Below, one piece after another: positions 4,976 through 55,899 of a DNA stretch of 64,000 nucleotides. Position numbers and translations under genes: made by a program. The notes beneath the pieces were generated by a model. That model was not told the origin of the DNA, did not search any database, and worked only from the letters and a program-made list of their open reading frames with translations. Source of the stretch: Streptomyces lydicus (GTDB taxonomy: Bacteria > Actinomycetota > Actinomycetes > Streptomycetales > Streptomycetaceae); contig NZ_JNZA01000032.1 of NCBI RefSeq assembly GCF_000717345.1, forward strand, positions 39,417 to 103,416, written 5' to 3'. Each line of letters starts with the position of its first letter. The first letter of the stretch is position 1.

Positions 4976-5386
4976 CTACCCCTCGTCGGCCTCCTGGTCG
5001 GCTGCTTCGTTGGCGCGGTCGATCTCGGCCATGTGCTCCTCCGCCCAGGTCCGCAGCCCCGCAAGCGCGGATTCCAGGGACAGGCCGAGTCCGGTGAGGT
5101 GGTAGAAGACCCGCGGCGGCACGGTCGGTTCGACCCGGCGCGACACCAGCCCGTCGCGGGTCAGGCTGCGCAGCGTCACGGACAGCATCTTCTGCGAGAC
5201 GCCGGGCATCCGGCGTCTCAGCTCCGCGAAGCGCACCTCGTCCGGTGCGGCATCGGCGAGCGTCTTGACGGCCATCGATGTCCACTTCGTACCGATGCGG
5301 TCCAGCAACTGCCGTGTCGGGCAATGGGGATCGAACAGATCGCCGCGTACCCCGCGACCGGCGGCCCGGGCCCCTCGGGTGGTCAC
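4976..5386 (-). CDS. HxlR-family winged-helix transcriptional regulator
   Basis: A 136-residue HxlR-type MarR-like regulator. The signature is seen in CPTRQLLDRIGTKWTSMAVK followed by RFAELRRRMPGVSQKMLSVTLRSLTRDGLVSR and the wing RVFYHLTGLG. The last roughly 20 residues are acidic. It is divergent from an alpha/beta hydrolase gene whose start is 100 bp away, and the shared intergenic region contains a 21-bp palindrome; regulation of the hydrolase and of itself is the simplest reading. The inducer is unknown. Confidence 0.92.
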   Translation of the reverse strand: MTTRGARAAGRGVRGDLFDPHCPTRQLLDRIGTKWTSMAVKTLADAAPDEVRFAELRRRMPGVSQKMLSVTLRSLTRDGLVSRRVEPTVPPRVFYHLTGLGLSLESALAGLRTWAEEHMAEIDRANEAADQEADEG

Positions 5387-5451
5387 CTGTGGCTCACCAC
5401 CTTCCGTGAAAGTGCCCTCTGGGAAGCGGTCGGGCAGTTACCTATCGTTGT

Positions 5452-5472
5452 GTGGTCACCAATGGTAACCAC
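5452..5472. promoter_or_regulatory. candidate HxlR operator, 21-bp imperfect palindrome
   Basis: The arms GTGGTCACCA and TGGTAACCAC mirror each other around the centre with one mismatch pair (C/T opposite A/G). The site lies 15 bp before the hydrolase start and overlaps its ribosome-binding region, inside the divergent HxlR/hydrolase intergenic region. A further GTTACC at about 5437 and GGTAAC at about 5464 form a wider inverted pair. Binding by HxlR is inferred from position and symmetry. Confidence 0.5.
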
Positions 5473-5486
5473 CCGGAGGAGCCGTC

Positions 5487-6344: not shown

Positions 6345-6471
6345 CCGGAGCGGGGCCGGGGGATCACGGTCGGCGGTGCGGGCGTTCGTCCCAGCGGTGA
6401 CGTCCAGGACCGCCGGGGCGGGCTGCGCACGGTGCGGAGTGCCGGTGTCCGCCGCCTGTCCGCGCGCCCTC

Positions 6472-6930
6472 TCAGTCGTCGGGCTCGACGCCCTGGGGGC
6501 CGTAGAGGTCGAGCAGCCGGGTGCGGGTGCCGTGCAGCCGGTCGGCGACCGTCTCGGCCACATAGCGGTACATGGCCCGGCCGAGCACCGCGTCGGACTC
6601 GCACAGCGCGCGGACGAGGGCGGCGTCGAACTCCACCGCCTCGACCGGGCCGACGGTCTGTGCGCCCAGGTGCCACAGGTAGGGCGGGAACAGCCAGGAC
6701 CAGCCGAGGAGTTCGTCACGGCCGAGGGTCTCCACCACCAGCGCGCGCCGGCCGGGGACGTGCTGGTCGAGCGCGACCTGTCCGCTGCGGATGATCCAGA
6801 ACCGGTCGGCCCGCCGGCCCTCCTCGAAGAGGCGGGTGGCCCGCGGCAGCGACACCTCGCGGGCGAGGTCGGTCAGCCGTTGGCGCCGGTCGGGTGGCAC
6901 CGCCTCGAAGAGATTTCTCGCTGTGGCCAT
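6472..6930 (-). CDS. stand-alone cyclic-nucleotide-binding (Crp/Fnr N-terminal-like) protein
   Basis: A 152-residue protein made of one cNMP-binding beta-roll: LFEEGRRADRFWIIRSGQVAL is the first half, and an ETLGRDELLGWSWLFPPY stretch follows. No helix-turn-helix follows; the chain ends after the C-helix (TRTRLLDLYGPQG), so it cannot bind DNA like Crp. The ATG at 6930 has GGAGG five bases upstream; an in-frame ATG at 6963 is the alternative. It is the last gene downstream of the NHLM export genes (83-bp gap) and likely part of that transcription unit, perhaps as a ligand-sensing partner of export. Its ligand is unknown. Confidence 0.85.
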   Translation of the reverse strand: MATARNLFEAVPPDRRQRLTDLAREVSLPRATRLFEEGRRADRFWIIRSGQVALDQHVPGRRALVVETLGRDELLGWSWLFPPYLWHLGAQTVGPVEAVEFDAALVRALCESDAVLGRAMYRYVAETVADRLHGTRTRLLDLYGPQGVEPDD

Positions 6931-7013
6931 CTCATCCTCCGTCCGCTGGCTGCTGTGCAACATATGCGGTGATTTACGGGGACGGTGGGACCGGCTCGGC
7001 CGGGCGGGCCGGG

Positions 7014-9902: not shown

Positions 9903-9903
9903 G

Positions 9904-12192: not shown

Positions 12193-12995
12193 GGCAGCAG
12201 CCAATCGATCGGGTGCTGCGCGGCCAGGTGGACGGCGCCGCTGGCCAGCGTCATGGAGTCGACGGCGTAGGGCGGGCCGCCGGAGGTCGACCAGGCGTAG
12301 CCGGACTTGTTGTGCGGCGCCGGTTCGAGTTGCACCAGGACCGCGACGGGCGGCCCGGACTTCGAGAACTGCTCACCGAGCTGGCTGCTGCCGAGGTAGG
12401 CGCCGATCCGCTGGCGGGTCTGGGCGGTGCGGCCGACGGCCTTAACCCGCCCGCGCAGCACGCCGTACTGCTGGCTGGGCACGGACTGCACGGTGAGGTC
12501 GACCGAGCCGCCCACGGGGACGCTGGCGCCGTTGTCGGCGGGGACGTACAGGGTCGCGGTCAGCGGGTCGCCGCGGTGCGCGACGCGCTCGACGGAGGCG
12601 ACGTCCGCGCCGGTCGTGACGACGGATCCGATGGTGGCGACCATGGTGGTCAGCCGGCCGGCGGCGAGGCTGCGCACGACGGTGGTGCCCCGGTCGGTCC
12701 GGACCCTGAGCAGCGGGGTGTTGGCGGCCACCCGCTGGCCCTCTTCGGCGAGGACGGCGGTGACCTGGCCCGCGACGGGGCTCTGCAGGATGTAGCTGCC
12801 CTGGCCGTGGGTGAGGATGCCGGGGGCGTTGAGCGTGGAGGAGACGGTGCCGGTCACCGCCCAGAAGGACGCGCCGATCAGCACGGCGACCGTGACGATC
12901 AGTACGAGCCAGCCCTGGGGGCGGGCGAAGCGCACCGGAAGATCCATTTCCTCCGGCGACTGCAGCTTGGAAAGGGCCTGTTGACGGAACTGCAC
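12189..12995 (-). CDS. HlyD-family adaptor of the NHLM peptide exporter
   Basis: A 268-residue membrane-fusion-like protein: a cytoplasmic N terminus of about 28 residues, one membrane span (WLVLIVTVAVLIGASFWAV), then an extracytoplasmic biotinyl-lipoyl-like hairpin region (ILQSPVAGQVTAVLAEEGQRV) and beta-barrel domain. It would couple the ABC pump to the cell-wall side. The coiled-coil arm is very short, as expected without an outer membrane. The start is GTG with GGGAAGAG upstream. It overlaps the C39 exporter by four bases and lies 201 bp after the precursor gene, with a strong hairpin between. Confidence 0.9.
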   Translation of the reverse strand: MQFRQQALSKLQSPEEMDLPVRFARPQGWLVLIVTVAVLIGASFWAVTGTVSSTLNAPGILTHGQGSYILQSPVAGQVTAVLAEEGQRVAANTPLLRVRTDRGTTVVRSLAAGRLTTMVATIGSVVTTGADVASVERVAHRGDPLTATLYVPADNGASVPVGGSVDLTVQSVPSQQYGVLRGRVKAVGRTAQTRQRIGAYLGSSQLGEQFSKSGPPVAVLVQLEPAPHNKSGYAWSTSGGPPYAVDSMTLASGAVHLAAQHPIDWLLP

Positions 12996-13111
12996 GACAC
13001 TCTTCCCTCAACTGCAACGATCTGTCAGGACACCGCGGACGGGGCGGCTCGCCCCGGTTGCCGCGGTGGAGCCGAGCCTACGGCGGCCTGTCCGGGGCTC
13101 GGCAGCCGGGT

Positions 13112-13148
13112 GCCCCGGAACCCGGCGAAGGCCAGGCGGTTCCGGGGC
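13112..13148 (-). terminator. 10-bp stem hairpin between precursor and export genes
   Basis: GCCCCGGAAC at 13112-13121 pairs perfectly with GTTCCGGGGC at 13139-13148 around a 17-base loop. It lies 49 bp past the precursor stop and before the HlyD-like gene. It could act as a partial terminator or 3' stabiliser that lets the peptide transcript exceed that of the transporter. Confidence 0.55.
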
Positions 13149-13196
13149 AGCCGGCCGGCATGTCGGCAAGGAGGGGATGCCGACCTGCCGTGGGTC

Positions 13197-13409
13197 TCAG
13201 AGACCGGCGACGAGGCCCGTGACCTGGCCGGTGTTGACGCCGGTCAGACCCTCGACGGTGCCGGTGACGGTGCCCAGGGTGCCGCCGACGTTGAGGCCGG
13301 TGGCGCCGTCAACGGTGGAGGTGGCGGTGCCGGCCAGGTTGCCCACGAGGCCGCCGGCCACGTTGTCGAGCTCGCTGTCAGCGATTTCCTGGGTCTGAAT
13401 CTCGCGCAT
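13197..13409 (-). CDS. double-glycine leader precursor peptide of the NHLM export system
   Basis: A 70-residue peptide. Residues 1-20 are an acidic leader ending ELDNVAGG, the classic GG site cut by C39 peptidases. The 50-residue core (21-70) has 13 Gly and 11 Thr, no Cys, no aromatic and no basic residue, and shows loose repeats of a Thr-Gly-hydrophobic pattern (TGLN, TGTVEGLTG, TGQVTGLVAGL). No modifying enzyme is encoded next to it, and without Cys it cannot form lanthionines. The ATG at 13409 has AAAGGA eight bases upstream; an in-frame upstream codon at 13430 is less likely. It heads the operon of HlyD adaptor and two ABC proteins. Confidence 0.85.
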   Translation of the reverse strand: MREIQTQEIADSELDNVAGGLVGNLAGTATSTVDGATGLNVGGTLGTVTGTVEGLTGVNTGQVTGLVAGL

Positions 13410-14172
13410 GGTGATTCCTTTCGGATACATATCTCAAAATAGCTGCGACCGAGTCGCCCGGCAGGGCGGTCCGGCCGCGGCAGCGGTCGCCGGGACCCTC
13501 AAGACTGAGAACCCCAGTGCGACTTCCGCGGTGTGAAGGATCAAAGCATGCAGGCCCGTTGCCCTGCTAATCGGACAACCGTCGATCCGGGTGTCATCGC
13601 ACCATTGAATTACGTGTCGTGCACGCACATCCATGAATCGGTGGCAGCTTCTTCACAACTTCTTCGGTTTCACTTCCACCAAAGCGTCCCGGCCACCTTC
13701 GGCGAACTGGACATTCCCGCACCAAACCGATGAGGCGCAGGTCAGCAGGGGGAACCGTCTCCGACAGCCGTGCCCTGACTGAGCATTCGATGTGGAGGTT
13801 TTTTGAAGGCCGTCAATTTTTACGGCACCGATTCACCCGATGGCCGGAAGATCGGCGCGCCCGCTACCCGACGCCCTTCATCGAATGTTGCGGGAGCTTT
13901 GCGCGAGTTTTAACCGCGCCCGATTCATCCGAAGTTCCCGGGGCGGTATTACACGCCGTGCACACCTTGCAGGGAATGATCAGCACTAACCGTGCGTCTT
14001 TCCGAAGCAATCGGATCGACCGGCCCGAGAACGGACATAACCGCATAACGGCACGGCTTCCGACTCGGCGGAAATAGGTGATTTACCGCCGGTACCACCC
14101 CCGGTGGCAGCCGTCCCCCGGCTGGGGCACCGTGAAAGAGACCTGGGCCGGCGCACCGGGAAGGAGCCGCAC
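13410..14172. other. 763-bp intergenic region with no convincing gene
   Basis: This divergent region between the peptide-export operon and the PHP gene is clearly richer in AT than its surroundings. Short frames on both strands lack codon bias and recognisable domains. The minus-strand leader just before the precursor gene contains GCGACCG/CGGTCGC arms (13445-13451, 13484-13490) and other GC-rich inverted segments. The minus-strand promoter must lie here, but I cannot assign a single convincing -35/-10 pair. Confidence 0.5.
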
Positions 14173-15204
14173 GTGGAGCCCGTCGAGGCGCTGGAGCGGA
14201 TCGCCTTCCTGCTGGAGCGGCAGGGGGCGGAGACCTATCGCGTACAGGCGTTCCGTACGGCCGCCGCGGCGATCCGGGAGCTGTCCGACGACGAGCTGCG
14301 CGGGCGCGCCGAGGACGGCACCCTCACCCGCCTCAAGGGGCTCGGCCCCAAAACCACCCGGGTGGTCGAAGAGGCGTTCGCGGGAGTGCGCCCGGTGTAT
14401 CTGGCCCGCCTGGAGGACGAGGCGGGCGGGCCGCTGGTCGACGGAGAGCAGGGGCAGCGGCTGCGGCGGGCGCTGCGCGGGGACTGCCACACGCACTCGG
14501 ACTGGTCGGACGGCGGCAGCCCGGTCGAGGAGATGGCCAGGACCGCCCGCGACCTCGGCCACGCCTGGTGCGTGCTGACCGACCACTCCCCCCGCCTCAC
14601 CGTCGCCCGCGGGCTGTCCGCCGACCGGCTGCGGGAGCAGCTGGCGCTGGTCGCCGAGGTGAACGAAGCGCTGGCGCCGTTCCGGCTGTTAACCGGGATC
14701 GAGTGCGACATCCTCGACGACGGCACGCTCGACCAGGAGCCGGAGCTGCTGGACCGGCTCGACGTGGTGGTGGCCTCGGTGCACTCCAAACTGCGGATGG
14801 ACAAGGGCCCGATGACGCGGCGGATGCTCGCCGCGGTGCGCAACCCGCTGGTGGACGTGCTCGGGCACTGCACCGGACGGCTGCTCACCCGCAAACCGCG
14901 CCCCGAGTCGCAGTTCGACGCCGACGAGGTGTTCGCGGCCTGCGCGGAGCACCGCACCGCGGTGGAGATCAACTGCCGCCCGGAGCGGCTGGACCCCCCG
15001 CGCCGGCTGCTGCGCCGTGCCCTGGACGCGGGCTGCCTGTTCTCCATCGACACCGACGCCCATGCGCCGGGCCAGCTGGACTGGCAGTTCTACGGCTGCG
15101 CCCGCGCCGAGGAGTGCGGCGTCCCTGCGGAGCGGGTCATCAATACCTGGACGGAGCGCCAGCTGGCCACCTGGACCCGTACGGGCCGCACCCCGCACGG
15201 CTGA
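14173..15204 (+). CDS. PHP-domain metal-dependent phosphoesterase with N-terminal helix-hairpin-helix
   Basis: A 343-residue protein resembling a PolX without the polymerase palm. Residues 1-75 match the PolX N-terminal DNA-binding helices (a LERIAFLLERQGAETYRVQAF stretch) with a helix-hairpin-helix LKGLGPKT at 54-61. The PHP domain follows: HTH metal motif H106/H108, TDHSPR, HSKLRM, GHCTGR, EINCRP and DTDAHAPGQLD. It probably hydrolyses phosphodiesters in DNA-related or nucleotide substrates. The GTG at 14173 has AAGGAG seven bases upstream and is clearly better than upstream codons. Codon 173 is TTA, so translation would depend on the bldA tRNA. Confidence 0.88.
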   Translation: MEPVEALERIAFLLERQGAETYRVQAFRTAAAAIRELSDDELRGRAEDGTLTRLKGLGPKTTRVVEEAFAGVRPVYLARLEDEAGGPLVDGEQGQRLRRALRGDCHTHSDWSDGGSPVEEMARTARDLGHAWCVLTDHSPRLTVARGLSADRLREQLALVAEVNEALAPFRLLTGIECDILDDGTLDQEPELLDRLDVVVASVHSKLRMDKGPMTRRMLAAVRNPLVDVLGHCTGRLLTRKPRPESQFDADEVFAACAEHRTAVEINCRPERLDPPRRLLRRALDAGCLFSIDTDAHAPGQLDWQFYGCARAEECGVPAERVINTWTERQLATWTRTGRTPHG

Positions 15205-15215
15205 GCCCGGACCGG

Positions 15216-16568
15216 TCAGCCGGCGGACGGCGCGGGCGCGGCCGGTGCCGTCGCCGGGGTGAGCCGCAGCGCGGCGACGTGCGCCACGACCACGGCGACG
15301 ATGACCAGCGGCATGACGGTCAGTCCGTTGCTGCCCATCAGCAGCGTGGCCAGCAGCACCGAGGTCATCGGCAGTCTGAGCATCGCCGCCCCCAGCGCGC
15401 CGACGCCCATCGCGAAGCCCGCGGTGAGCGACAGTCCGGGCAGGTGGGACAGGATGACCCCGCCGGCCGCGCCGAGGAACAGCGCCGGGAAGATCGGGCC
15501 GCCCCGGAAGGCGCTGAGCGACGCACAGTAGGCCAGGCCCTTGCACACCACGAGGAGCAGCAGCGCCCCCACCGAGTAGCCGGCGCTGTCCCGGAACAGC
15601 GACCCGAGCGCCGACTGCCCCGAGTAGAGCATCTCGGTCGCGGGCTTGCCGGTGGCCAGGGCGAACCCGGCCGCCAGCGCCCCGACCACCAGGCCCATCG
15701 CCACCGTCATCGGCACCCGGTGCCGCCCCACCCGCTCCTTCAGCAGCAGCGAGAGCCGCCGTACGCCGCCCCCGAAGCAGGCCGCGGCCAGCCCGATGAC
15801 CAGCGCCCAGCCGAACTCCGAGAGCGTCGGTCCGGAGGCCCTGGGGATGTCGTGCAGCGCGAGCGAGTACGTACCGAGTCCGGTCCAGTCCCCCAGCCCG
15901 GTGAAGATCAGCGCGCCGACGCCGGACGCGAGCAGGCCGGGCAGCAGCAGCGCGCCCAGCATCGGGCCGACCGGCGCCGCCACCTCCATCAGCAGGAACG
16001 CGCCCAGCAGCGGGGAGCCGAGCAGCGCGCTGACCGCCGCGAAGCTGCCGGCGGCCGCCACCGCGGCGACGGTCCGCTCCGGCAGGCCCCGGCCCACCAG
16101 CCGTGCGGCGCCCGCGGACAGCCCGCCGCCGAGCGCGATCAGCGGCGCCTCCGGCCCGAGCACCGCACCGAAGCTGAGGGAGGCCAGGGCCGCGAGGACG
16201 ATGCCGGGGAGCGCGGAGAGTGCGGGCGCGCCGCCGAGCGCCAGCCCGTCGGCCGGCTCATGGCCGCCGTGGCCCGGCAGGTGGCGGACCGTCAGCCCGA
16301 CCAGCAGGCCGGCCACCACCAGCATCGGCACCGGCCACCACCACGGCGTCCCGGCGAAGCCCAGCGCCCGGGGCAGCGCTTGCATGATCAGCGGTTCCAG
16401 TTCGTGCACCAGCGCCAGAAAGCCGAACGCCACCGCGCAGACCGGGACGCCGATCACCGCCGCGATCAGCAGCAGCTTCAGATAGCCGCGGGTGCGGGCC
16501 GGCGCGTAGGGGTCCTGGGGCACACCGGGAGGTGTCCCGCCGCCCGGGCCGGTGGGGCCGACCGCCAT
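15216..16568 (-). CDS. ClC-family chloride channel/transporter-like membrane protein
   Basis: A 450-residue polytopic protein with ClC-type helices. The selectivity segments are recognisable in divergent form: GPEAPLIALGGG (equivalent of GKEGP) and FRGGPIFPALFLGAAGG (equivalent of GxFxP). The N terminus is cytoplasmic and Pro/Gly-rich. No CBS domains are attached. The ATG at 16568 is preceded by GGAGGCGAGG; the longer open frame upstream overlaps the LysR gene and is a shadow. Its stop converges with the PHP gene 11 bp away. Whether it is channel or antiporter cannot be told. Confidence 0.85.
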   Translation of the reverse strand: MAVGPTGPGGGTPPGVPQDPYAPARTRGYLKLLLIAAVIGVPVCAVAFGFLALVHELEPLIMQALPRALGFAGTPWWWPVPMLVVAGLLVGLTVRHLPGHGGHEPADGLALGGAPALSALPGIVLAALASLSFGAVLGPEAPLIALGGGLSAGAARLVGRGLPERTVAAVAAAGSFAAVSALLGSPLLGAFLLMEVAAPVGPMLGALLLPGLLASGVGALIFTGLGDWTGLGTYSLALHDIPRASGPTLSEFGWALVIGLAAACFGGGVRRLSLLLKERVGRHRVPMTVAMGLVVGALAAGFALATGKPATEMLYSGQSALGSLFRDSAGYSVGALLLLVVCKGLAYCASLSAFRGGPIFPALFLGAAGGVILSHLPGLSLTAGFAMGVGALGAAMLRLPMTSVLLATLLMGSNGLTVMPLVIVAVVVAHVAALRLTPATAPAAPAPSAG

Positions 16569-16662
16569 CGCCTCGCCTCCTCGCCGCCGCCACGAGGAGC
16601 GTGCCACGGCCGGACCCGGCCGGTGCGCAGGACGCGGTCCGCGCCACCCGAACGCCGTCGCG

Positions 16663-46211: not shown

Positions 46212-47119
46212 GGTCCCTCCCGGTCACGAAGGCGTCTTCCCCACACCGCATTCCAGCCGCACCGAATTCAGCTGAGTTGCCGCCCTCGGTCAAGTGGCAG
46301 CGGAGCACACCCTACTCATCATCAACTCCTTGCGAAAACAGTGGTCTGGAATATCTGGTTCCGCACCTTTTCGCCGCGATGAGATTGAAGAGGAAACAAC
46401 TTTTCGGCCGATCTCCCGAAGCCCCTCCCCTTTGCCTCTCCGGCAGTCACAGGACAACACGCGCCATTTATTTGGCATATTCACCGGCGCACGGGACCTC
46501 CACAACCGGACCTCACCGGTCGGCCACTCCCCCGTTTCTCCGCTCCCCGTACACCGCGGAGCTGATATCGGACGCCGGGAACGGCGGCGGCAGGCCCTCG
46601 ACCGGCGCGAGCGGCACCAGAGCATCACAGCATCGCCCTTGCGGTCCAGACCAGTTGGCCGGCGCCGGGGGTCCGGGCTCACCCAGCGACACTTTCCGGC
46701 CAAAACCAGTCGGTGGTTGTGCACTCGCGAACACCGGAAAGACTCTCCCCTGGGCGCCAACTGCCGCACTTCACGGGGCACTTGGCACGCCCCCAGCACG
46801 GAATCGGGTCAAGAGCAACCGAAATTAGCGGAAGCTACTTTCCGGAACCGCGCGATCACATGTAGCGTTCGACTCGACCGGAGGCCGTGACTTCGCACCA
46901 CGTCATGGCCGAGTACGGGCATGGGCGCGAGCGTTCTTACGGCACGGACGGAGCGGTTGCCCCCGATGGGCGCACCCGCATTACGAGTGCCTGTTCGCCC
47001 CCTACGCCCAGCACCGGACTGCGTCGCATCACCTGCGCAGCACCTCAGCACCCTTGAACGTCGAGCACCGCCATGTCTGTCCGTACACGCCTGCTTTGCA
47101 AGAGGAATGGGCCCAGATC
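46212..47119. other. 908-bp gene-poor, AT-richer intergenic region
   Basis: No frame here shows Streptomyces codon bias or a recognisable domain; several short frames on both strands look like chance. It separates a TPR-like gene from the winged-helix regulator. A weak promoter-like pair, TTCCGG at 46840-46845 and TAGCGT at 46863-46868 (17-bp spacing), points right. CACTTGG at 46779-46785 recurs in the hypX/precursor intergenic region. Confidence 0.45.
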
Positions 47120-47665
47120 ATGTTTATGAACTCCTCGACGACCCCGCTTGCGTTGCGACCGGAAGCCGACTTCGGCCGCACGGTGACAGCCGGGCCCGGC
47201 GAAGGGCCACCGCTGGCGGTCGACCGGCTCCCCGACGGCACGTGGCAACTGACCCTGCACGACCTGGAACCGGTATCGGTGCACCGGCTGCCCTCGGACG
47301 AGGTCCACATCATCCTGGCGCCGCCGCGGGAGGATCCGGCACACCCCGACGGGCCCGCGGCTCCGGCCGCCCCGCCCCGGCCGGAGCCGATCCAGATCGA
47401 CACCGCGGCCCGGACCGTCTCCATCCAGGGCCGCCAACTCAGCCTGCCACGGCTGGAATTCGATCTGCTGGCCCACCTCGTGCTGCACCCCCAGCGGGCC
47501 TTCACCCGGGAACAGCTGATGGCCGCGGTCTGGCCCAGCTGCCAGTCCAGCACCCGTACCGTCGACGTCCACATCGCGCGGCTGCGCCGCCGCCTGGGGC
47601 CCGGCCTGCGCGACTCCATCAGCACGGTGTTCGGCATCGGCTACAAGTACCTGCCCGCCCTGTAA
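47120..47665 (+). CDS. winged-helix (OmpR/PhoB C-terminal type) regulator without receiver domain
   Basis: A 181-residue protein. Residues 1-85 are a short domain with no receiver motifs, ending in a Pro/Ala linker; residues 95-181 are an OmpR-type winged helix (a LPRLEFDLLAHLVLHPQRAFTREQ stretch, then a TVDVHIARLRRRLG recognition helix and FGIGYKYLP wing). Lacking a phospho-acceptor, it is probably controlled by ligand or level. Start: ATG at 47120; 47126 and 47054 are alternatives. It converges on hypX and is the likely regulator of the peptide locus; CACTTGG copies upstream of it and of the precursor may be its sites. Confidence 0.8.
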   Translation: MFMNSSTTPLALRPEADFGRTVTAGPGEGPPLAVDRLPDGTWQLTLHDLEPVSVHRLPSDEVHIILAPPREDPAHPDGPAAPAAPPRPEPIQIDTAARTVSIQGRQLSLPRLEFDLLAHLVLHPQRAFTREQLMAAVWPSCQSSTRTVDVHIARLRRRLGPGLRDSISTVFGIGYKYLPAL

Positions 47666-47762
47666 CCGGCGGACGGTTGACGCGCGGGCACGGCGGCCGG
47701 GGGAAGCCGGCGACCGGGCCCGCGGAAGCGACGGACGCGGCAGTCCGGCGGCGGGGGACGCC

Positions 47763-49472
47763 TCACACCCCGGCCGCCCCGGGGTTGAGGTGCGCCGGGG
47801 TGCCGGCGGCGGGTTCCTTGCGCACGAAGGCCCGCCGCAGGGCGTGGTAGGGGTGGTCCGGGTCGAAGAAGATCTCGCGCATACGGGCCAGTTCGTGCTC
47901 CCGGTAAGCGGCGAGCGGCCGCTCCGCCTCGTCCTGCTCCCGCCCGGCCTTCTTCGTGGCGATCCGGGCGTGGACGGCCGGTGAGGACGCCAGCCGCACG
48001 GCCAGGTGCGCGGTCTGCGGACCGAATTCCTGCGGATCGCAGTCGACGATGCGGTCCACGAGCCCGAGCCGCTGGCCGGCCGCCGCGGTGAGCGGCAGGG
48101 CGCGCCGGGTGAGCTGCTCGGCGACCTCGGGGCCGGCCCGCCCGGGCAGGGTGTACGTCCAGTACTCCGAGCCGTACAGCCCCATCAGCCGGTAGTGCGG
48201 GTTGAGCACCACGGCGGCGCGGCACCACACCTCGTCGGCGGCGAGCGCCAGCATCACCCCGCCGGCCGCGGCGTTGCCGCCGAGCGCGGCGACCACCAGC
48301 CGGTCCGTGGTGGTCAGGACGGCGTGTACGAGGTCGTCCATGGCGTTGATGTTGTCCCAGGACTCCGCGGCCGGGTCCGCGGCGGCCTCGATCACGTTCA
48401 GATGGATGCCGTTGGAGAAGAAGTCCCGGCGGCCGCCGAGGACCAGGACGGAGGTGGGCCGGGCGCAGGCGTGCCGGTAGGCGGCGAGCAGCCGGCGGCA
48501 GTGGTCGGTGCTCATCGCACCGCCGGGGAACGAGAACTCCAGGAATCCGGCCGGGCCCTCCTCGCGGTAGCGGATGTCGGCCCAGGTCCGGGGGGTGTCG
48601 GGGGCCTCGAGCGGGGCGGGCACCTCGGGGAGCGGGGGGAGGCGGTCGCCCAGCGCCAGGGTGGCGGGCAGTTTGACGGGGCGGGGCTCCCCCGGGCGGC
48701 GTGCGGGCCGGAGTTCGGGGATCCACACCGCGCCGTCGGCCGTCGCCCGGCAGACCGCGCCGCACCGGGTGGCGAGCAGGTCCCCCGGCCGGCCGGTCAG
48801 GGTGTCCTCGGGGTGACCGCCGTGCAGGAACCAGGTGCCGCCGAGGAGTTCGTCCCGGACGCCGGGCTGGGAGTCGGCGGCGCGCAGCTTGCTCAGGACG
48901 GTGCCGGTGGGGTCGCGCTGCCAGTCGATCCGGCGCAGGTCCTGACGCAGGGGCGGCCGGGGGCGGCCGGTTCTGGCGGTGGCCGGCAGGGTGTCCTGCG
49001 GTTGCGGGCGGTGGGTACCGGACGCGACCCGGTCGACGGCCGTCAGGACCGCCTCGACGGCGGCGTCGGCGATCTCGTTGCGGTAGAGGTCGCTCTTGCC
49101 GACCTCGGGGACGGCGCACTCGGCGGTGGCCCAGATGTCGCCGGCGTCCATCTCGTCGTTGGCCTGGAAGACGGTGACGCCCCACCGGTCCGCGCCCAGG
49201 TGCACCGCCCAGTCCACCGAGGAGGGGCCGCGGTCGCCGACCGGGCCGGGGTGCACGATCAGGCAGGTGTACGCCGACCACACCTCGCGGGGTACCGCCG
49301 TCTTGAGCATCGGCGCCACGACGAGCTCGGGGTCATGACGGCGGACGACCTCCGGCAGCGGCGTCTCCCGCGTCACCAGCTCGACGTTCACCTGGTGCCC
49401 GCCGTCGCAGAGTTCGGCGTGGACGCGCTGCGTCAGGCTGTTGAACGCGCCGGCGATGAGCAGAATGCGCAC
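47763..49472 (-). CDS. hypX: HypX-like formyltransferase/enoyl-CoA hydratase fusion protein
   Basis: A 569-residue two-domain protein with full HypX architecture. Residues 1-230 are a formyltransferase fold: VHPGPVGDRGPSSVDWAV (His74) and DEMDAGDIW (Asp109/Asp112). Residues about 290-520 are a crotonase fold with SNGIHLNVIEAA, SWDNINAMDDLV, GGNAAAGGVMLALAAD and LNPHYRLMGLYGSEYWTY. HypX takes formyl from 10-formyl-tetrahydrofolate through formyl-CoA to CO for NiFe-hydrogenase assembly; no hydrogenase gene is near. GGAGGAG lies six bases before the GTG at 49472. It is divergent from a repeat-bearing peptide gene and may act on it or supply a one-carbon group. Confidence 0.88.
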   Translation of the reverse strand: MRILLIAGAFNSLTQRVHAELCDGGHQVNVELVTRETPLPEVVRRHDPELVVAPMLKTAVPREVWSAYTCLIVHPGPVGDRGPSSVDWAVHLGADRWGVTVFQANDEMDAGDIWATAECAVPEVGKSDLYRNEIADAAVEAVLTAVDRVASGTHRPQPQDTLPATARTGRPRPPLRQDLRRIDWQRDPTGTVLSKLRAADSQPGVRDELLGGTWFLHGGHPEDTLTGRPGDLLATRCGAVCRATADGAVWIPELRPARRPGEPRPVKLPATLALGDRLPPLPEVPAPLEAPDTPRTWADIRYREEGPAGFLEFSFPGGAMSTDHCRRLLAAYRHACARPTSVLVLGGRRDFFSNGIHLNVIEAAADPAAESWDNINAMDDLVHAVLTTTDRLVVAALGGNAAAGGVMLALAADEVWCRAAVVLNPHYRLMGLYGSEYWTYTLPGRAGPEVAEQLTRRALPLTAAAGQRLGLVDRIVDCDPQEFGPQTAHLAVRLASSPAVHARIATKKAGREQDEAERPLAAYREHELARMREIFFDPDHPYHALRRAFVRKEPAAGTPAHLNPGAAGV

Positions 49473-49633
49473 AGCGGACTCCTCCGGGGCTGGGCGGTGG
49501 CCGATGCCCGTGAGCGTTCCCCGGGCGGGCCGGGCGGCCCCGGAGTCGCCCGGCAGGTCACCCGGCCGGCCGCCGCCGTACGGCCCAAGGCACCGGGTCC
49601 GCACCGGCGCGCACGCCAGGAACTGACGGCGCG

Positions 49634-49684
49634 TCACTTGGTTCCGCCGTTGATCATCTCGACGGGATCCCGCCAAAGTTGGCG
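49634..49684. promoter_or_regulatory. candidate operator elements upstream of hypX
   Basis: TCACTTGGT at 49634-49642 recurs exactly at 49731-49739 in the precursor promoter, and CGCCAA/TTGGCG arms at 49671-49684 form a 14-bp palindrome around AG. Direct repeats of this kind suit OmpR-type winged-helix proteins such as the one encoded at 47120. The assignment is positional inference. Confidence 0.4.
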
Positions 49685-49723
49685 CGCCGGGCCCACTTCA
49701 CCCCGCACCGGCATTGCCTTTCA

Positions 49724-49753
49724 TTGACATTCACTTGGTCATACTTTTACCTT
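49724..49753 (+). promoter_or_regulatory. candidate promoter of the repeat-peptide operon
   Basis: A consensus TTGACA at 49724-49729 and TACCTT at 49748-49753 are separated by 18 bp in a locally AT-rich stretch. It points at the 51-residue peptide gene with a leader of about 65 nt. The spacer contains TCACTTGGT, a copy of the upstream direct repeat, so a regulator bound there could block or assist polymerase. Confidence 0.6.
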
Positions 49754-49823
49754 CATGGTGCGGCATCGGCGCAGGTCAGCGTCGTGTGCCCGGCATCTTT
49801 CCGCACTCTTCCCGGAGGTCCCG

Positions 49824-49979
49824 ATGGAGCAGCTCATCAAGAAGATGGCCCAGGACACCGTCTGGCAGAACTGGCTCGCCGCCAACTCCGCACAGCAGGC
49901 CGCGAAGAACGGCTGCATCAGCGCGGCACCCAAGGCCGGTTGCATCAGCGCCGCGCCGAAGGCCGGCTGCATCTCCTGA
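49824..49979 (+). CDS. 51-residue putative RiPP precursor with GCISAAPKA tandem repeats
   Basis: A small peptide: leader-like residues 1-29 (MEQLIKKMAQDTVWQNWLAA and an Ala/Gln-rich stretch, helical and without signal peptide), then residues 30-51 made of GCISAAPKA twice plus a terminal GCIS. Three Cys, three Ser and two Lys recur with nine-residue spacing, as in multi-core RiPP precursors. GGAGG lies seven bases before the ATG, and a near-consensus promoter lies upstream. Downstream on the same strand are a PaaK-like ligase, a WH-motif protein and an MFS exporter; hypX is divergent. No known RiPP class is matched. It could instead be a structural or metal-binding peptide. Confidence 0.8.
   Translation: MEQLIKKMAQDTVWQNWLAANSAQQAAKNGCISAAPKAGCISAAPKAGCIS
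49911..49976 (+). repeat. 27-bp tandem coding repeat, 2.4 copies
   Basis: Units at 49911-49937, 49938-49964 and a partial 49965-49976 encode GCISAAPKA, GCISAAPKA and GCIS. The two full units differ only at several third positions, so the peptide is conserved exactly while DNA has drifted: a sign of selection on the repeat peptide. Confidence 0.85.
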
Positions 49980-50015
49980 AGCCCGGTACCCGCCGAGTGA
50001 TCCGGGGGCGGGCGA

Positions 50016-50038
50016 CGGCGGCGCTTCCCCGGCCGCCG
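50016..50038 (+). terminator. hairpin between the precursor and ligase genes
   Basis: CGGCGGC at 50016-50022 pairs perfectly with GCCGCCG at 50032-50038 around a nine-base loop, 37 bp after the peptide stop. Outer GGGCGGG/CCGCCC stretches extend it. It may terminate most transcripts and so raise precursor over enzyme expression. Confidence 0.5.
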
Positions 50039-50114
50039 ACCACCGCCCACCCCCGGGCACCCCGCCCCGCACCGCCCCCACGGGCGCCGTTCTCCGAGCC
50101 CTGACGAGGAATCC

Positions 50115-51350
50115 ATGGATGGTCAGCCGACCGCCGAGGTCATCGAGCAGCTGCGCGACATACCGCTCTACCGCGAGTCGCTCGCGCAGGGGTACTTCCC
50201 CGTACTGGACAAGCCGGAGATCGCCCGCGGCTTCCCCGAGAACTGGATGACGCCCCGGCTGTCCGCCGCGCTGGCGGCGGGCGAGGCGGAGTACGTCCTG
50301 TCCACCGGCACCAACCACGCCCGGATGCAGCTCATCCGCCCGCCGTACTTCCTGCTGCACTCCTACTACCGGCTGTGGCGCACCCACCCCGACATCTCCG
50401 GCACCTGGGAGTCCGGCTGCCGGCGGGTCTCGCTGACCACGGTGCTGGCGACGGAACATGTCGCACGGGTCAACGCGGCCCGCAGCGGAGTGCCGCCGCA
50501 GGCGGTGCCCACCCTCGACGACCGGTGGCTCGACGACCGCACCTGCTATCTCAACCTCCGGCTCGACCCGGCGCTGTGGGAGCGCGACGAGGTCGTACGG
50601 ATGCTCCGGGAGATCGAGGCCGCCCGCCGGACCCACCGACGCGGCGAGTACCACCTCGACTGCTCCGGCTACCACCTGGCGCACCTGGTGCGGAAGGTCG
50701 GCGAAGAAGGACTGTGGGATGAGTTCCCGCCGCCCGCCAGCATCATCCACGCCTACGAATACACCCCGGTGAACGTCCGGCGCTTCCTGCGGCAGCATTT
50801 CGACTGCCCGCTGATCGACCTGTTCGGCAGCACCGAGCTCGGCTATCTCTACTACAGCGACCGCCGCGGCACCTATTGGCCGCACCTGGACGACATGAGC
50901 GTCGAACTCCACCCGGTCGCCCCCGGGAGCACGATCTTCGAGCTCATCGTCTCCAGCGTGCGCAACCCGTACATGCCGCTGATCCGCTACCGCTCCGGTG
51001 ACTGCGTACGCACCCAGGACGGGACGCCGGATCCCTCGAAGATCACCCAATTCTGCGGCCGGCAGAAGGAGTTGCTGAGCACGCCGCACGGGCCGGTGGC
51101 GCAGGGCGATCTCGACCGGTGCATCGGCGAGGCCACCGCACGCGTCTTCCTGCACCAATTGCGGCTCGCGGGCCCGGCCGAGGCGCGGCTGGCGTACACG
51201 ACATTCGACGGCGCACCCCTCGACGCGACCGAGTGCGCGGCGCTGGAGCACGGCGTCGGTGAACTGACCGGCCGGCACTGCCGGCTGGAGCACCGTGCGC
51301 ACCTCCCCATCGGGCCGTCCGGGAAGTACGCCTGGCTCGCCGCCGCCTGA
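50115..51350 (+). CDS. PaaK/coenzyme F390 synthetase-like adenylate-forming enzyme
   Basis: A 411-residue ANL-superfamily protein related to phenylacetate-CoA ligase and F390 synthetase. The ATP loop is divergent (LSTGTNHAR at 62-70 instead of SSGTTGKP), while FGSTELG (237-243), IRYRSGDCV and the C-terminal catalytic-type Lys404 in GPSGKYAW are kept. It should activate a carboxylate as an acyl-adenylate; no carrier-protein domain is attached. Candidate substrates are the precursor carboxyl terminus or a small acid to be attached to it. GAGGAAT precedes the ATG. It is the first enzyme gene after the repeat peptide. Confidence 0.82.
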   Translation: MDGQPTAEVIEQLRDIPLYRESLAQGYFPVLDKPEIARGFPENWMTPRLSAALAAGEAEYVLSTGTNHARMQLIRPPYFLLHSYYRLWRTHPDISGTWESGCRRVSLTTVLATEHVARVNAARSGVPPQAVPTLDDRWLDDRTCYLNLRLDPALWERDEVVRMLREIEAARRTHRRGEYHLDCSGYHLAHLVRKVGEEGLWDEFPPPASIIHAYEYTPVNVRRFLRQHFDCPLIDLFGSTELGYLYYSDRRGTYWPHLDDMSVELHPVAPGSTIFELIVSSVRNPYMPLIRYRSGDCVRTQDGTPDPSKITQFCGRQKELLSTPHGPVAQGDLDRCIGEATARVFLHQLRLAGPAEARLAYTTFDGAPLDATECAALEHGVGELTGRHCRLEHRAHLPIGPSGKYAWLAAA

Positions 51351-51384
51351 CCCCGCCCACCCCGCCCACCTGCACAGGAGCGCC

Positions 51385-51900
51385 ATGACCAGCCGCCCGC
51401 CGCTGTCCGCCGACGACCTGAGGGAGCTGCTCGGGGAGACCCTGCACACCGAGGTCGTCGACCATTTCGCCGTCAAGAGCCCGGACCTGCCACGGGAATA
51501 CGTGCTTCGGCAGGTCACCGAATGCCTGCGGTACCTGTATCTCGTTTCCCGGCACCGCGAACAGCTCGGCGGGCTGTTCCTGCCCGTCGAGCAGGACATC
51601 GACGAGATCTGGCACTACCTGATCCTCCAGACCCGCGAATACCGGGCACTGTGCGAGGAACGGCTGCCGGGGCGGTTCTTCATCGAGCACCGCAGCATCG
51701 CCTACGAGGAATACCAGCAGGAACCGGGCCGCGAACAGGCGGTCGAGGAAGCGCTCCGCTGGATTCCGCTGTACTGCCGGGAATTCGGGGCGTTCGACGA
51801 GGGGGCCCTGCCGCACTGGACCATCGTGCGTTTCCTGCACGAGCAGATGGACCTGTCGCTCACCGACATCTCGGCGCTGGAACCCATGGCTCCGGCGTAA
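51385..51900 (+). CDS. small protein with a WH motif, DUF1399-like, function unknown
   Basis: A 171-residue soluble helical protein. The segment VEQDIDEIWHYLILQTREY (Trp76-His77) resembles the xDxxWHxHILxTxxY signature of DUF1399/glycine-rich-domain-like proteins, for which no biochemical role is established. Further His/Tyr/Cys residues (EHRSIAYEEY, YCREFGAF, PHWTIVRFLHEQ) could bind a metal; this is speculation. ACAGGAG precedes the ATG. It is placed between the adenylating enzyme and the MFS exporter with short gaps, so it is probably a maturation component of the same pathway. Confidence 0.75.
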   Translation: MTSRPPLSADDLRELLGETLHTEVVDHFAVKSPDLPREYVLRQVTECLRYLYLVSRHREQLGGLFLPVEQDIDEIWHYLILQTREYRALCEERLPGRFFIEHRSIAYEEYQQEPGREQAVEEALRWIPLYCREFGAFDEGALPHWTIVRFLHEQMDLSLTDISALEPMAPA

Positions 51901-51947
51901 CACCCACCGCCCCCGTCCGCGCTCCGCGGTTCGATCGGAAAGGAATC

Positions 51948-53219
51948 ATGACGGCTCGGAACGGCGCGCCGGCCACGCGCGACATACCGGAACAGCGGCG
52001 GGTTCTCGCGGTCCTGGTCCTCGCCCAACTCCTCAGCGGCGCGGGCCTGGCCGCGGGCATCACCGTCGGCGCGCTGCTCGCCGAGGAGATGCTCGGCTCG
52101 ACCGGTCTGGCGGGGGTGCCCAGCGGACTGTTCACGGCGGGCGCCGCGCTCGGCGCGGCCGGCATCGGCCGGATCTGCCGCCGCTGGGGCCGGCGTCCCG
52201 GGCTCGCGCTCGGCTACGCCACCGGGGCGCTCGGCAGCCTCGGGGTCGTCGTGGCGGCCACCAGCGGCAGTGTCCCGCTGCTGTTCCTGAGTCTGCTGGT
52301 CTACGGCGCCGGCACCGCCACCAACTTGATGGCGCGCTACGCGGGAGCGGACCTGGCGTCCCCGGCGCGGCGCGGCCGTGCGGTCAGCACCGTGCTGTTC
52401 GCCACCACGCTCGGTGCGGTGGCCGGTCCCAACCTGGTCGAGGTCACCGGCGAGCTGGCGCTCTCCTGGGGCGTACCGCGCCTGGCCGGGCCGTTCCTGC
52501 TGGCCACCGCGGCCTTCGGCGCGGCCGCGGTCGTGCTGGCGGCCCTGCTGCGGCCCGATCCGCTGCGGCTGGCCCAGGCGCTGGCGCGGCGCCCGGCCGC
52601 GCCCGCCGGCCCGCCCGCACCCGCGGCCGGGGAGGAGCGGCGGCCGGCCACCGGACCGTACCGGCGCGGAGTCGTCGGAGGCACCGCGGTCGTGCTCGTC
52701 GGCCAGCTCGTGATGATCTCCGTGATGACGATGACGCCCGTCCACATGCAGGCGCACGGCCATGACACCGGGGCCGCCGGACTCGTCATCGCGCTGCACG
52801 TGGGCGCGATGTTCCTGCCGTCCCCGCTCACCGGTCTGCTCGTCGACCGGCTCGGCCGGCGGTGGGTGGCCGCGGCGTGCGGCCCGGTACTGCTGGCCGC
52901 CGGTGCGCTCGCGGCCACGGCGCCGCCGCACTCCGTCGCGCTGCTCGCCACGGCGCTCGTACTGCTGGGCCTCGGCTGGAACTTCGGGCTGGTCAGCGGT
53001 ACCGCCATGGTCACCGACGCACTGCCGCCCGAGCGGCGCGCGCCGGTGCAGGGGCTGGTGGACGTGGGCATCGCGCTGGCCGGCGCGTCCGGCAGCCTGG
53101 CCTCCGGTCTCGTCGTGATGCTGGGCGGCTACCCGGCGCTGGCGCTGGCCGGCGGGCTCCTCGCGCTGACGGTCGTCCCGCTGGCCGTGTGGGCGGTACC
53201 GCAATCGGAAAAATCTTGA
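51948..53219 (+). CDS. MFS transporter
   Basis: A 423-residue major-facilitator protein with 12 predicted spans and a charged central loop. The loop between spans 2 and 3 reads RICRRWGRRPGLALGYATGALG, and that between 8 and 9 has LLVDRLGRRWVAA, both standard MFS signatures. AAAGGAAT precedes the ATG. As the last gene of the repeat-peptide operon it probably exports the mature product and could give self-protection. Neither substrate nor direction can be proven from sequence. Confidence 0.88.
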   Translation: MTARNGAPATRDIPEQRRVLAVLVLAQLLSGAGLAAGITVGALLAEEMLGSTGLAGVPSGLFTAGAALGAAGIGRICRRWGRRPGLALGYATGALGSLGVVVAATSGSVPLLFLSLLVYGAGTATNLMARYAGADLASPARRGRAVSTVLFATTLGAVAGPNLVEVTGELALSWGVPRLAGPFLLATAAFGAAAVVLAALLRPDPLRLAQALARRPAAPAGPPAPAAGEERRPATGPYRRGVVGGTAVVLVGQLVMISVMTMTPVHMQAHGHDTGAAGLVIALHVGAMFLPSPLTGLLVDRLGRRWVAAACGPVLLAAGALAATAPPHSVALLATALVLLGLGWNFGLVSGTAMVTDALPPERRAPVQGLVDVGIALAGASGSLASGLVVMLGGYPALALAGGLLALTVVPLAVWAVPQSEKS

Positions 53220-53824: not shown

Positions 53825-54427
53825 ATGGAGACCTTCATTCAGCATGCCCGCGGCCTGACGGCCCGGATCGCCGACCGGCGCGAGGAGCAGGAGACCTACG
53901 GCCGGTTCGCCGCCGGCCAGTCGCCCCTCGCCCTGTTCATCACCTGTTCCGACTCCCGCGTCGTACCGTCCCTGATCACCGGCGCGCGGCCCGGCGAACT
54001 CTTCGAACTGCGGACGGCCGGCAACGCCGTCCCCGTCCACCGGGAAGGCATGGCGGCCTGCGCCGAGGCCGCCACCATCGAGTACGCGATGCGCGTACTG
54101 AAGGTGGCCGACATCGTGGTGTGCGGTCACTCGCACTGCGGCGCGGTCGGCGCCAAGGTCCGCGGCGAGGACCTGACCGGCGCGCCCGCCGTGCGGGACT
54201 GGCTGGCGCAGGCACTGTCCGACGAACTGCCCAGGGACGAGGAGCCGACGGTCTCCGCGGCCGTCCAGCAGCACGTGCGCCAGCAGCTCGCCCGGCTGCG
54301 CGACTACCCCTGTGTACGGGAGCGGCTGGACACCGGTGAGGTGAACCTGCACGGCTGGTTCTACGAGGTCCACACCGGCATGGTCGCGGCACACCACCCG
54401 GCCTCCGACCTGTTCCTCCCCCTGTGA
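53825..54427 (+). CDS. beta-class carbonic anhydrase
   Basis: A 200-residue zinc enzyme interconverting CO2 and bicarbonate. Zinc ligands are Cys41 (TCSDSR, with the Asp43/Arg45 dyad), His102 and Cys105 in CGHSHCGA. The RTAGNAV segment is also diagnostic. AGGAG precedes the ATG. Its TGA overlaps the GTG of the SulP transporter, so the two are translated together. The pairing of a carbonic anhydrase and a SulP permease suggests that bicarbonate is the transported anion. Confidence 0.95.
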   Translation: METFIQHARGLTARIADRREEQETYGRFAAGQSPLALFITCSDSRVVPSLITGARPGELFELRTAGNAVPVHREGMAACAEAATIEYAMRVLKVADIVVCGHSHCGAVGAKVRGEDLTGAPAVRDWLAQALSDELPRDEEPTVSAAVQQHVRQQLARLRDYPCVRERLDTGEVNLHGWFYEVHTGMVAAHHPASDLFLPL

Positions 54428-55899
54428 AGGCGCGGGTACCTCTCATGAAGCGACTCACCTCCTTCCGGGCGGACTTCACCGCCTCCCTCGTCGTGTTCCT
54501 GGTCGCCGTCCCGCTGTGCGTGGGCGTGGCCGTCGCCTCCGGCGTCCCGGCCGAACTGGGGCTGGTCACCGGTGTCGTGGGCGGACTGCTCACCGGTCTG
54601 CTCCCCGGCAGCAGCCTGCAGGTCAGCGGCCCGGCCGCGGGCCTGACGGTGCTGGTCTTCGAGGCCGTCAAGGAGTACGGCATCGGAGCGCTGGGCGCGC
54701 TGGTGCTGGCCGCCGGCGTACTTCAACTCGCCATGGGCGCACTGAAGTTGGGCCGCTGGTTCCGGGCGATCTCGGTCGCCGTCGTCCAGGGCATGCTGGC
54801 CGGCATCGGCCTGGTGCTGATCGCCGGGCAGCTCTACGCCCTCGCCGACGCCAAGGCGCCGGGCACCGGCCTCGCCAACCTCGGCTCGCTGCCGAGGCTG
54901 GTCACCGACACCCTGGGCTCCGGGACCGCGCTGTCCGCCCTGGCCATCGGCACCGGCACCATCGCCGTACTGGTGCTGTGGCCCCGCTGGCGGCGCGCCG
55001 CGCGGGTCCTGCCCGCGCCGCTGGCCGCGGTGGCGCTCGCCACCACCGCGGTCTGGGCACTGGAACTGCCGGTCGCCCGGGTCCGGGTGAGCGGGCTGCT
55101 GGACGCGATCCAGCCACCCGGCCTCGCCGATCTGGGCCGGCTCACCGAGGTCGGGGTGCTGGGCACGGTCGTCGCGTTCGCGCTGATCGCGTCCGCCGAG
55201 TCGCTCTTCAGCGCCGCCGCGGTCGACCGGCTGCACGACGGGCCGAAGACCGACTACGACAAGGAGCTGATCGCGCAGGGCGCGGGCAACGCCGTCTGCG
55301 GTGTGCTCGGTGCGCTGCCGATGACCGCGGTGATCGTACGCAGTGCCGCCAACGTCCAGGCGGGCGCACGGACCAAGGCGTCGCGGGTGCTGCACGGCGT
55401 CTGGCTGCTGGTGTTCGCCGCGGCGTTCCCGGCCGCGCTGGGCGTGGTGCCGGTCGCCGCGCTGGCGGGTGTCCTGGTGCACGCCGGCTGGAAACTGATC
55501 CCGCTGCGTGAGCTGCGTCCCCTGTGGCGTGAACACCGCGGGGAGGCCGTCGTCCTGCTCGTCACCGCCCTCGCGATCGTCACGGTCAACATGTTCGAGG
55601 GTGTGCTCATCGGTCTCCTGATGGCCGTGGCGAAGACCGCCTGGGAGACCTCGCACGTCCACCTGGAGGTCCGTACGCCGGACGACGCGGACGCGCCGGT
55701 GCTGGTGCGCGCCGTCGGCAACGCCACCTTCCTGCGGTTGCCGAAGATCCTCGACCAGCTCGACGCGCTGCCCGCCGACCGGGACGTGGAGCTCGACCTG
55801 AGCGGGCTGCGGCACCTGGACCACGCCTGCGGCACGGCGCTGACGAACTGGGCCGAGCAGCACCGCCGCAGCCGGCGGGCGGTGGAGCTGGTGTCCTGA
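54424..55899 (+). CDS. SulP-family anion (probably bicarbonate) transporter with STAS domain
   Basis: A 491-residue protein: about 11-14 membrane spans (residues 10-410) starting FRADFTASLVVFLVAVPLCVG and including GLLTGLLPGSSLQVSGPAAGLT, then a C-terminal STAS domain (about 420-490: VGNATFLRLPKILDQLDALP, ELDLSGLRHLDHACGTAL). SulP proteins move sulfate, bicarbonate or other anions. The start GTG overlaps the carbonic anhydrase stop (GTGA); ATG at 54445 is an alternative. Bicarbonate is the best guess from context, sulfate the alternative. Confidence 0.92.
   Translation: MKARVPLMKRLTSFRADFTASLVVFLVAVPLCVGVAVASGVPAELGLVTGVVGGLLTGLLPGSSLQVSGPAAGLTVLVFEAVKEYGIGALGALVLAAGVLQLAMGALKLGRWFRAISVAVVQGMLAGIGLVLIAGQLYALADAKAPGTGLANLGSLPRLVTDTLGSGTALSALAIGTGTIAVLVLWPRWRRAARVLPAPLAAVALATTAVWALELPVARVRVSGLLDAIQPPGLADLGRLTEVGVLGTVVAFALIASAESLFSAAAVDRLHDGPKTDYDKELIAQGAGNAVCGVLGALPMTAVIVRSAANVQAGARTKASRVLHGVWLLVFAAAFPAALGVVPVAALAGVLVHAGWKLIPLRELRPLWREHRGEAVVLLVTALAIVTVNMFEGVLIGLLMAVAKTAWETSHVHLEVRTPDDADAPVLVRAVGNATFLRLPKILDQLDALPADRDVELDLSGLRHLDHACGTALTNWAEQHRRSRRAVELVS

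Follow-up and report, generated by a model that had tools for sequence, protein, structure and literature searches.

A candidate ribosomal-peptide locus of Streptomyces that joins a GCIS-repeat precursor, a PaaK-family enzyme and a WH protein

Among ribosomally synthesized and post-translationally modified peptides (RiPPs), multi-core precursors are known from the cyanobactins and from pheganomycin. In nataxazole biosynthesis, an ester is made through an adenylating enzyme (PMC7204872), and the known role of HypX is CO supply for [NiFe]-hydrogenase (PMC6802093). Here, we describe a locus of Streptomyces lydicus in which a short peptide gene with repeated cysteines is followed, on the same strand, by genes for a PaaK-family adenylate-forming (ANL) enzyme, for a protein that we call WH after its Trp-His motif, and for a major facilitator superfamily (MFS) exporter, and then by genes for a carbonic anhydrase (CA) and a SulP transporter. 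To our knowledge, no described RiPP combines a ribosomal peptide with an adenylating enzyme of the PaaK family. The window, which is the whole stretch of 64,000 nucleotides that was analysed, is part of contig C32 in a genome of 8.18 Mb. An original prediction, made from its sequence alone, had proposed a natural-product locus for a peptide outside the named RiPP classes, built around HypX. All six features that it named are present in the sequence, and its view of the locus is supported by a conserved trio of genes (peptide, PaaK-like, WH) and by the occurrence of the WH family in RiPP-type clusters. The explanation that we favor, with confidence somewhat above even, is a candidate new RiPP locus in which the repeated cysteines are modification sites. 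The features on which this explanation draws are as follows.

49724..49750, + strand: promoter-like element TTGAC-N17-TTTAC (TTGACATTCACTTGGTCATACTTTTAC), 100 bases before the peptide start
49824..49979, + strand: candidate precursor peptide, 51 aa, with three K-x-G-C-I-S units and a GCIS end, recognized by homologues, repeat counts, and the ratio of nonsynonymous to synonymous substitution rates (dN/dS)
50115..51350, + strand: PaaK-family adenylate-forming (ANL) enzyme, 411 aa, recognized by motifs and predicted fold
51385..51900, + strand: WH protein, 171 aa, with an all-helical model and invariant E46, D73, W76-H77, Q82-T83, C90, and H102
51948..53219, + strand: MFS exporter (PF07690 at 1.4e-30), usual but not universal

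Of 199 Streptomyces genomes sampled, 28 (about one in seven) carry the PaaK-like gene, which also occurs at 17 loci of a named genome collection, one of them in Sciscionella; no copy was found on plasmids. Loci are present in S. griseus, S. anulatus, S. noursei, S. rimosus, and S. nigrescens. We compared 42 distinct loci, comprising the window, wide flanks (approximately 8–10 kb on each side) from 25 of the 27 other genomes, and loci of the named collection; G048 and G194 are omitted because their contigs are as long as those of L042 and L034, and L054 was dropped for its identical gene. The PaaK-like gene, which was the retrieval query, is beside the precursor in 42/42 loci. The WH gene is beside the precursor in 41/42, and the peptide, PaaK-like, and WH genes therefore occur together at all loci but one, which is cut by a contig end. 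At every locus, the peptide gene lies 206–508 bases before the PaaK-like gene, and at 30 of the 42 an MFS gene follows the WH gene. Within the window, the successive gaps are 135 bases (peptide to PaaK-like), 34 bases (PaaK-like to WH), and 47 bases (WH to MFS). The co-occurrence of the three genes, proposed from a single stretch of DNA, is thus borne out across related loci, and the MFS label is backed by the PF07690 match.

The peptide gene starts at an ATG (49824) with GGAGGT four bases ahead. Its 68 homologues at E ≤ 0.01 carry 196 GC[IV]S units in total (187 GCIS and 9 GCVS). A lysine stands two residues ahead of the glycine of the unit in 191 of these 196, and glycine directly precedes cysteine in 201 of 204 cases. 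Most homologues (51 of 68) have three units, while nine have two, six have four, one has one, and one has none; some of the atypical ones look truncated or frameshifted by eye. The C-terminal tail is itself motif-like in 63 of the 68. The number of units is variable but the unit is kept, as expected if every unit were an enzyme site. The peptide gene is under purifying selection, with a dN/dS of approximately 0.33 (190 pairs of 20 distinct equal-length genes; 0.37 in the leader and 0.30 in the repeats), and this ratio and the 68 homologues identify it as a real gene, confirming the 51-aa peptide with GCIS repeats that had been predicted. We also considered whether the repeat might be an attenuator or otherwise non-coding, which we reject because of the dN/dS and because the Cys codons are not in a run. 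Pfam and NCBIfam searches gave no credible match to a precursor family. By sequence, the putative ribosomal precursor has both a conserved leader and candidate modification sites that are conserved, as a RiPP locus should. We consider the RiPP reading quite likely to be correct and the cysteine probably the modification site. One homologue, P0068, with four GC[IV]S units, is from Paraburkholderia, the sole non-actinobacterial organism named among the matches listed; lateral transfer is possible.

A promoter-like element of the form TTGAC-N16..18-TTTAC lies 65–139 bases upstream of the peptide gene in 37 of the 42 loci, including the window, and is absent at L045, L066, L067, L068, and L073. 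The pattern was derived from those very loci, so its presence is descriptive, and its uniqueness is the informative part. No second copy was found in the window or in 758,666 bp of fetched loci (one duplicate locus included), and the pattern matches once in 166,936 bp of other DNA.

No Pfam family matched the PaaK-like enzyme, and its sequence matches are marginal. Its STGT, FGSTELG, SGK, and the GD of Y-x-[ST]-GD are invariant among 39 sequences; we take the P-loop STGT, an acidic motif, Y-x-[ST]-GD, and a C-terminal Lys to be the ANL signatures. The best PDB fold for the model (predicted local distance difference test [pLDDT] 89) is PaaK1 (2y27; E 4.7e-17, template modeling score 0.67), and the model also matches the PaaK-family ligases NatL2, AjiA1, and ClxA. 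By its motifs and predicted fold, the protein falls within the PaaK family of the ANL superfamily, in agreement with its initial label as a PaaK-like adenylating enzyme. It would adenylate a carboxylic acid and transfer it to the peptide, most likely to the cysteine thiols or adjacent to them. We hold acyl transfer to the peptide only tentatively, at a little less than even confidence. The enzyme could instead activate the carboxylate of the C-terminal Ser of the peptide, for C-terminal coupling rather than cysteine acylation. Carboxylate activation is what an ANL enzyme does, and the motif-like tail would be consistent with it. However, the GC[IV]S unit is also conserved at internal positions, usually two of them, which have no carboxylate, and the matched PaaK-family structures are described with small acids. 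We regard C-terminal coupling as improbable.

The WH protein connects the locus to peptide clusters of other kinds. Its model (pLDDT 86) matched no solved fold in the PDB (best E 3.6), and no Pfam or NCBIfam family was matched in scans whose Pfam copy was without PF27765; WH relatives carry PF27765, and some are named “glycine-rich domain-containing protein” by NCBI. The nearest homologue, 98% identical, is from S. lydicus. The suggestion that WH is DUF1399-like proved weak. Of 50 members compared with the GRDP-like family PF07173 (formerly DUF1399), one matched, at E 0.097 and short of the cut-off, so membership is unsupported; PF07173 had no match in the genome of the window, although the control was equally silent. 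Two relatives of WH lie in peptide clusters of other genomes.

L170 (G633:C1:5565000-5584900), cluster at 1-15094: WH relative with a 54-aa peptide
L184 (G870:C3:214500-234400), cluster at 9894-16661: WH relative with a 34-aa peptide

In L170, the WH gene is directly after the 54-aa peptide, which has the C-terminus NCWSAAS. Its neighbours encode an aminotransferase, a flavin (FAD) monooxygenase, TldD/TldE-type, ATP-grasp, and PhyH proteins, a probable ABC transporter (by eye), and a 523-aa protein without a Pfam match. In L184, the WH gene is directly after the 34-aa peptide (C-terminus NCWADIK), and an aminotransferase, an FAD monooxygenase, a radical S-adenosylmethionine (SAM) methyltransferase, and a MATE-like transporter (below its own cut-off) follow. 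The methyltransferase matches the RiPP radical-SAM C-methyltransferase family TIGR03975 at 613.7 bits, against a cut-off of 281.85. Neither NCW peptide matched an NCBIfam family. What all three contexts have in common is a WH gene beside a short peptide with a cysteine and then a hydrophobic residue, and the residues listed above are invariant, with W145 among others, over seven WH proteins of the three contexts. Our inference is that WH either presents this cysteine or acts at it, and this is taken as the shared step because relatives of WH adjoin other Cys peptides in RiPP-type clusters. A possible link to methanobactin was left unused: although the FAD monooxygenase of L170 and L184 is similar to MbnF, its score with RdmE is higher, and none of these scores reaches its cut-off.

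A single-sequence search for WH in 396 genomes of the phylum returned only the genome of the window, and a profile search added weak matches in 12. Among 150 genomes of the family, a profile search found seven close members and an intermediate one in G633; in 37 genomes its matches were only weak. The G633 protein, as a query against 236 genomes of the class, returned the genome of the window, a closer relative in G870 (51% identical), and one weak match; no relative of it was found in viral contigs or in 13 other genomes of its genus.

Two further genes downstream of the exporter, absent from the original prediction, prove more relevant to the locus than HypX.

53825..54427, + strand: beta-carbonic anhydrase (PF00484 at 7.4e-42) with intact zinc-site motifs
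54424..55899, + strand: SulP anion transporter, presumed to carry bicarbonate (PF00916 at 1.5e-59), paired with the CA gene

CA adjoins 28 of the 42 loci (18 of 28 genomes), and SulP accompanies it at 27 of these 28, L056 being the exception. At least four layouts exist: CA is downstream, or upstream on the same strand as the peptide gene, or on the other strand and either close or far upstream. The window CA reads CSDSR and HSHC at its zinc-site motifs, and C-x-D-x-R and H-x-x-C are kept in 27/27 linked CAs outside the window. Among the matches listed, ten CAs are at least 75% identical to the window CA, all of them beside the locus, and the best CA from a locus-free genome reaches 68%. A CA tree was built from all 28 linked CAs and 20 unlinked ones hand-picked from a longer list; an earlier tree with 16 of the 28 linked rows agrees with it. 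Two groups are each a single clade with 100/100 support, namely A (16 rows, downstream) and B (6 rows, S. griseus-type), and a 96/99 branch separates group A from group B and a mixed group C. The linked and unlinked states take six changes, at least four of them forced by well-supported branches. The simplest reading is at least two, and probably three or more, separate CA associations, unless the common ancestor was linked, gains and losses being inseparable here. At L068 and L073, SulP shares the strand of the peptide gene and ends approximately 64 and 169 bases, respectively, ahead of it, and the peptide gene's own element is absent. This arrangement suggests one transcript.

The adjacency could reflect a genomic hot spot or an inherited neighbourhood with no functional link, as CA is common (142 of 199 genomes), 14 of the 42 loci are without it (three of those cut on one side), and the pattern is partly inherited, the 16 downstream-linked CAs being one clade. 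However, the associated CAs come from two or more lineages that are well separated and stand in several orientations, and at L068 and L073 the CA-SulP pair approaches the peptide gene co-directionally where the promoter-like element has been lost. We think a hot spot unlikely, though it deserves some weight, and a functional link of CA and SulP to the pathway likely. Given the 14 loci that lack it, CA is a frequent helper rather than part of the core. The pair may serve the pathway through bicarbonate supply or through protection of the producer. A bolder version would have the product, a small peptide that is acylated or bears thiols, inhibit CA or withhold its zinc, the second CA and the bicarbonate importer provide self-protection by bypassing the step that is blocked, and WH represent a new RiPP maturation class at Cys-hydrophobic sites. 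The inhibition and self-protection in it have the repeated CA association as their sole evidence, and we consider this version as a whole quite unlikely. The papers on carbonic anhydrase that were listed show nothing relevant in their titles and abstract openings.

Several findings weigh against a RiPP locus with WH as a maturation protein. In the core, neither an enzyme of an established RiPP class nor a dedicated protease was found. The MFS gene is missing at 12 of the 42 loci (two are cut by contig ends, and L036 keeps a fragment), and the loci without CA count in the same direction. The L170 and L184 stretches (19.9 kb each) contain no relative of the PaaK-like enzyme, CA, SulP, MFS, or HypX at E ≤ 0.1; their peptide leaders are unlike that of the locus, and their WH proteins are only 34–36% identical. 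In nine neighbourhoods of weak WH matches (L171–L179), the relatives cover only residues ~6–101 of WH, and several of these neighbourhoods have genes that look helix-turn-helix-like by eye, with no peptide cluster evident. WH may thus be a binding fold, perhaps a general one, that was recruited into peptide clusters, and not an enzyme.

Instead of being exported as a natural product, the peptide could act inside the cell in CO2/bicarbonate physiology, as a carrier with several thiols or as a metal-binding peptide, with its thiols loaded by the ANL enzyme and the acyl groups passed on by WH. The usually two to four cysteines at regular spacing, the recurrent CA-SulP association, and the ten loci uncut by a contig end that lack a full MFS gene would suit such a role. 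Yet an MFS gene adjoins WH at most loci, one relative of WH has a MATE-like transporter in its RiPP-type cluster, and the patchy spread over 28 of 199 genomes resembles accessory metabolism, so that we find an intracellular carrier unlikely. Under the RiPP reading, the precursor would consist of a leader, MEQLIKKMAQD.VW..W.AANS, and usually two to four K-x-G-C-[I/V]-S units with cysteines as modification sites. WH would act at or present the Cys-hydrophobic site. Cleavage, perhaps near the conserved lysine, would release identical small products, and the MFS protein, where present, would export them. No class-defining enzyme of the lanthipeptides, lasso peptides, thiopeptides, sactipeptides, or YcaO peptides was found among the core proteins in the Pfam and NCBIfam scans, and from its sequences this is a candidate new RiPP family, a member of no named class. 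The open literature showed no link of HypX or PaaK to a precursor peptide, no GCIS repeats, and no name of a WH relative tied to RiPPs, which is weak evidence, as subscription journals are mostly uncovered.

On the far side of the promoter-like element lie two further genes, the first divergent from the peptide gene.

47763..49472, − strand: HypX, 569 aa, judged to be outside the peptide system
47054..47665 (the start may be 47120), + strand: winged-helix protein (PF00486, Trans_reg_C, at 2.2e-20), no other domain found

The window HypX aligns over residues 1–562 to the solved HypX/HoxX (6J0P; E 7.6e-143) and is full length, with a formyl-transferase N-domain and an enoyl-CoA hydratase-like C-domain, which confirms the divergent HypX-like gene of the original prediction. 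It is the sole HypX in its genome. A [NiFe]-hydrogenase operon, which the prediction had named as what would account for hypX if found elsewhere, is present on another contig (G000:C12:13317-26806) and encodes the small and large subunits, HypA, a HypB-type GTPase, HypF, HypD, and a HypE-type protein (Pfam). At cut-offs of E ≤ 1e-60 for HypX and E ≤ 1e-30 for the large subunit, 86 of the 199 genomes have HypX (a fragment in G023, split in three others) and 87 have the large subunit; 79 have both, seven HypX only, and eight the large subunit only (Fisher p 2.9e-37). Over the same genomes, HypX occurs independently of the peptide locus (11 with both, p 0.69): HypX was undetected at the cut-off in 17 of the 28 locus-bearing genomes, and hydrogenase is present in all 11 that have it. 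Hydrogenase genomes carry 80 HypX copies, of which 65 have the large subunit no more than 35 kb away, and six of the other 15 adjoin the peptide locus. HypX is adjacent at 11 of the 42 loci, all inside one clade of 18 (support 98/96), and its adjacency takes two changes on the ANL tree, one being possible. Raw adjacency (HypX in six of the 11 locus-bearing genomes that have it, CA in 18 of 28) is misleading because HypX represents one inherited arrangement and CA several arrangements and CA lineages.

The role of HypX is, by co-occurrence only, tied to [NiFe]-hydrogenase. This coupling, the independence from the locus, the single clade, and the known CO role make it most simply a hydrogenase gene next door, which would belong to hydrogenase assembly and very probably lies outside the peptide locus as a neighbour in one clade. 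A HypX-centred maturation, in which HypX gives formyl or CO to formylate or metallate the Cys peptide, could draw on the divergent gene beside the peptide at those 11 loci, on the retention of its full domain structure, and on the fact that HypX in this clade has quit the hydrogenase operon and remained beside the peptide gene. However, 31 of the 42 loci lack HypX, its adjacency is confined to a single clade, and it follows hydrogenase and not the locus, with most copies near the large subunit. We consider such a maturation very improbable; HypX as a pathway enzyme is rejected on the hydrogenase coupling, the single-clade adjacency, and the operon on C12. The proposals that the locus is built around HypX and that the peptide undergoes formylation or CO chemistry are accordingly unsupported. 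The winged-helix gene adjoins HypX in the HypX clade and, in L051, which is without HypX, stands 7.7 kb from the PaaK-like gene. It had been called a regulator; its PF00486 domain holds, while any role in the locus would be putative. In the S. griseus/anulatus loci (L037–L040, L055, and L060), response-regulator-like and sensor-kinase-like genes (by eye) lie between CA-SulP and the peptide gene, and the response-regulator-like protein is 34–36% identical to the window winged-helix protein.

An apparently unannotated peptide family thus occurs in about one in seven sampled Streptomyces genomes. The WH protein, recurring in radical-SAM and TldD/E-type peptide clusters, offers a new handle for mining RiPPs, and because CA and a bicarbonate-type transporter recur beside the locus, a target or a CO2 link can be tested directly. 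Removing HypX from the model spares effort on CO chemistry.

Compared with described systems, the window HypX matches the HypX/HoxX of [NiFe]-hydrogenase maturation over its full length, but it stands beside a peptide locus and not inside a hydrogenase operon. The PaaK-like enzyme shares its predicted fold and adenylation motifs with NatL2, AjiA1, ClxA, and PaaK1, although it is only 12–18% identical to the structures listed; unlike the loci of PaaK-family AMP ligases, the core here shows no small-acid pathway, and the neighbouring candidate acceptor is a peptide. The L170 and L184 clusters likewise have a WH relative immediately after a short Cys peptide, but with aminotransferase, FAD monooxygenase, and radical-SAM or TldD/E-type proteins, and with a single NCW site in place of repeated units. 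With the multi-core RiPPs, cyanobactins and pheganomycin, the locus shares a short ribosomal precursor with a leader and several near-identical units and adjacent candidate modifying enzymes, whereas a PaaK-family enzyme and a WH protein stand in its core in place of a class-defining enzyme.

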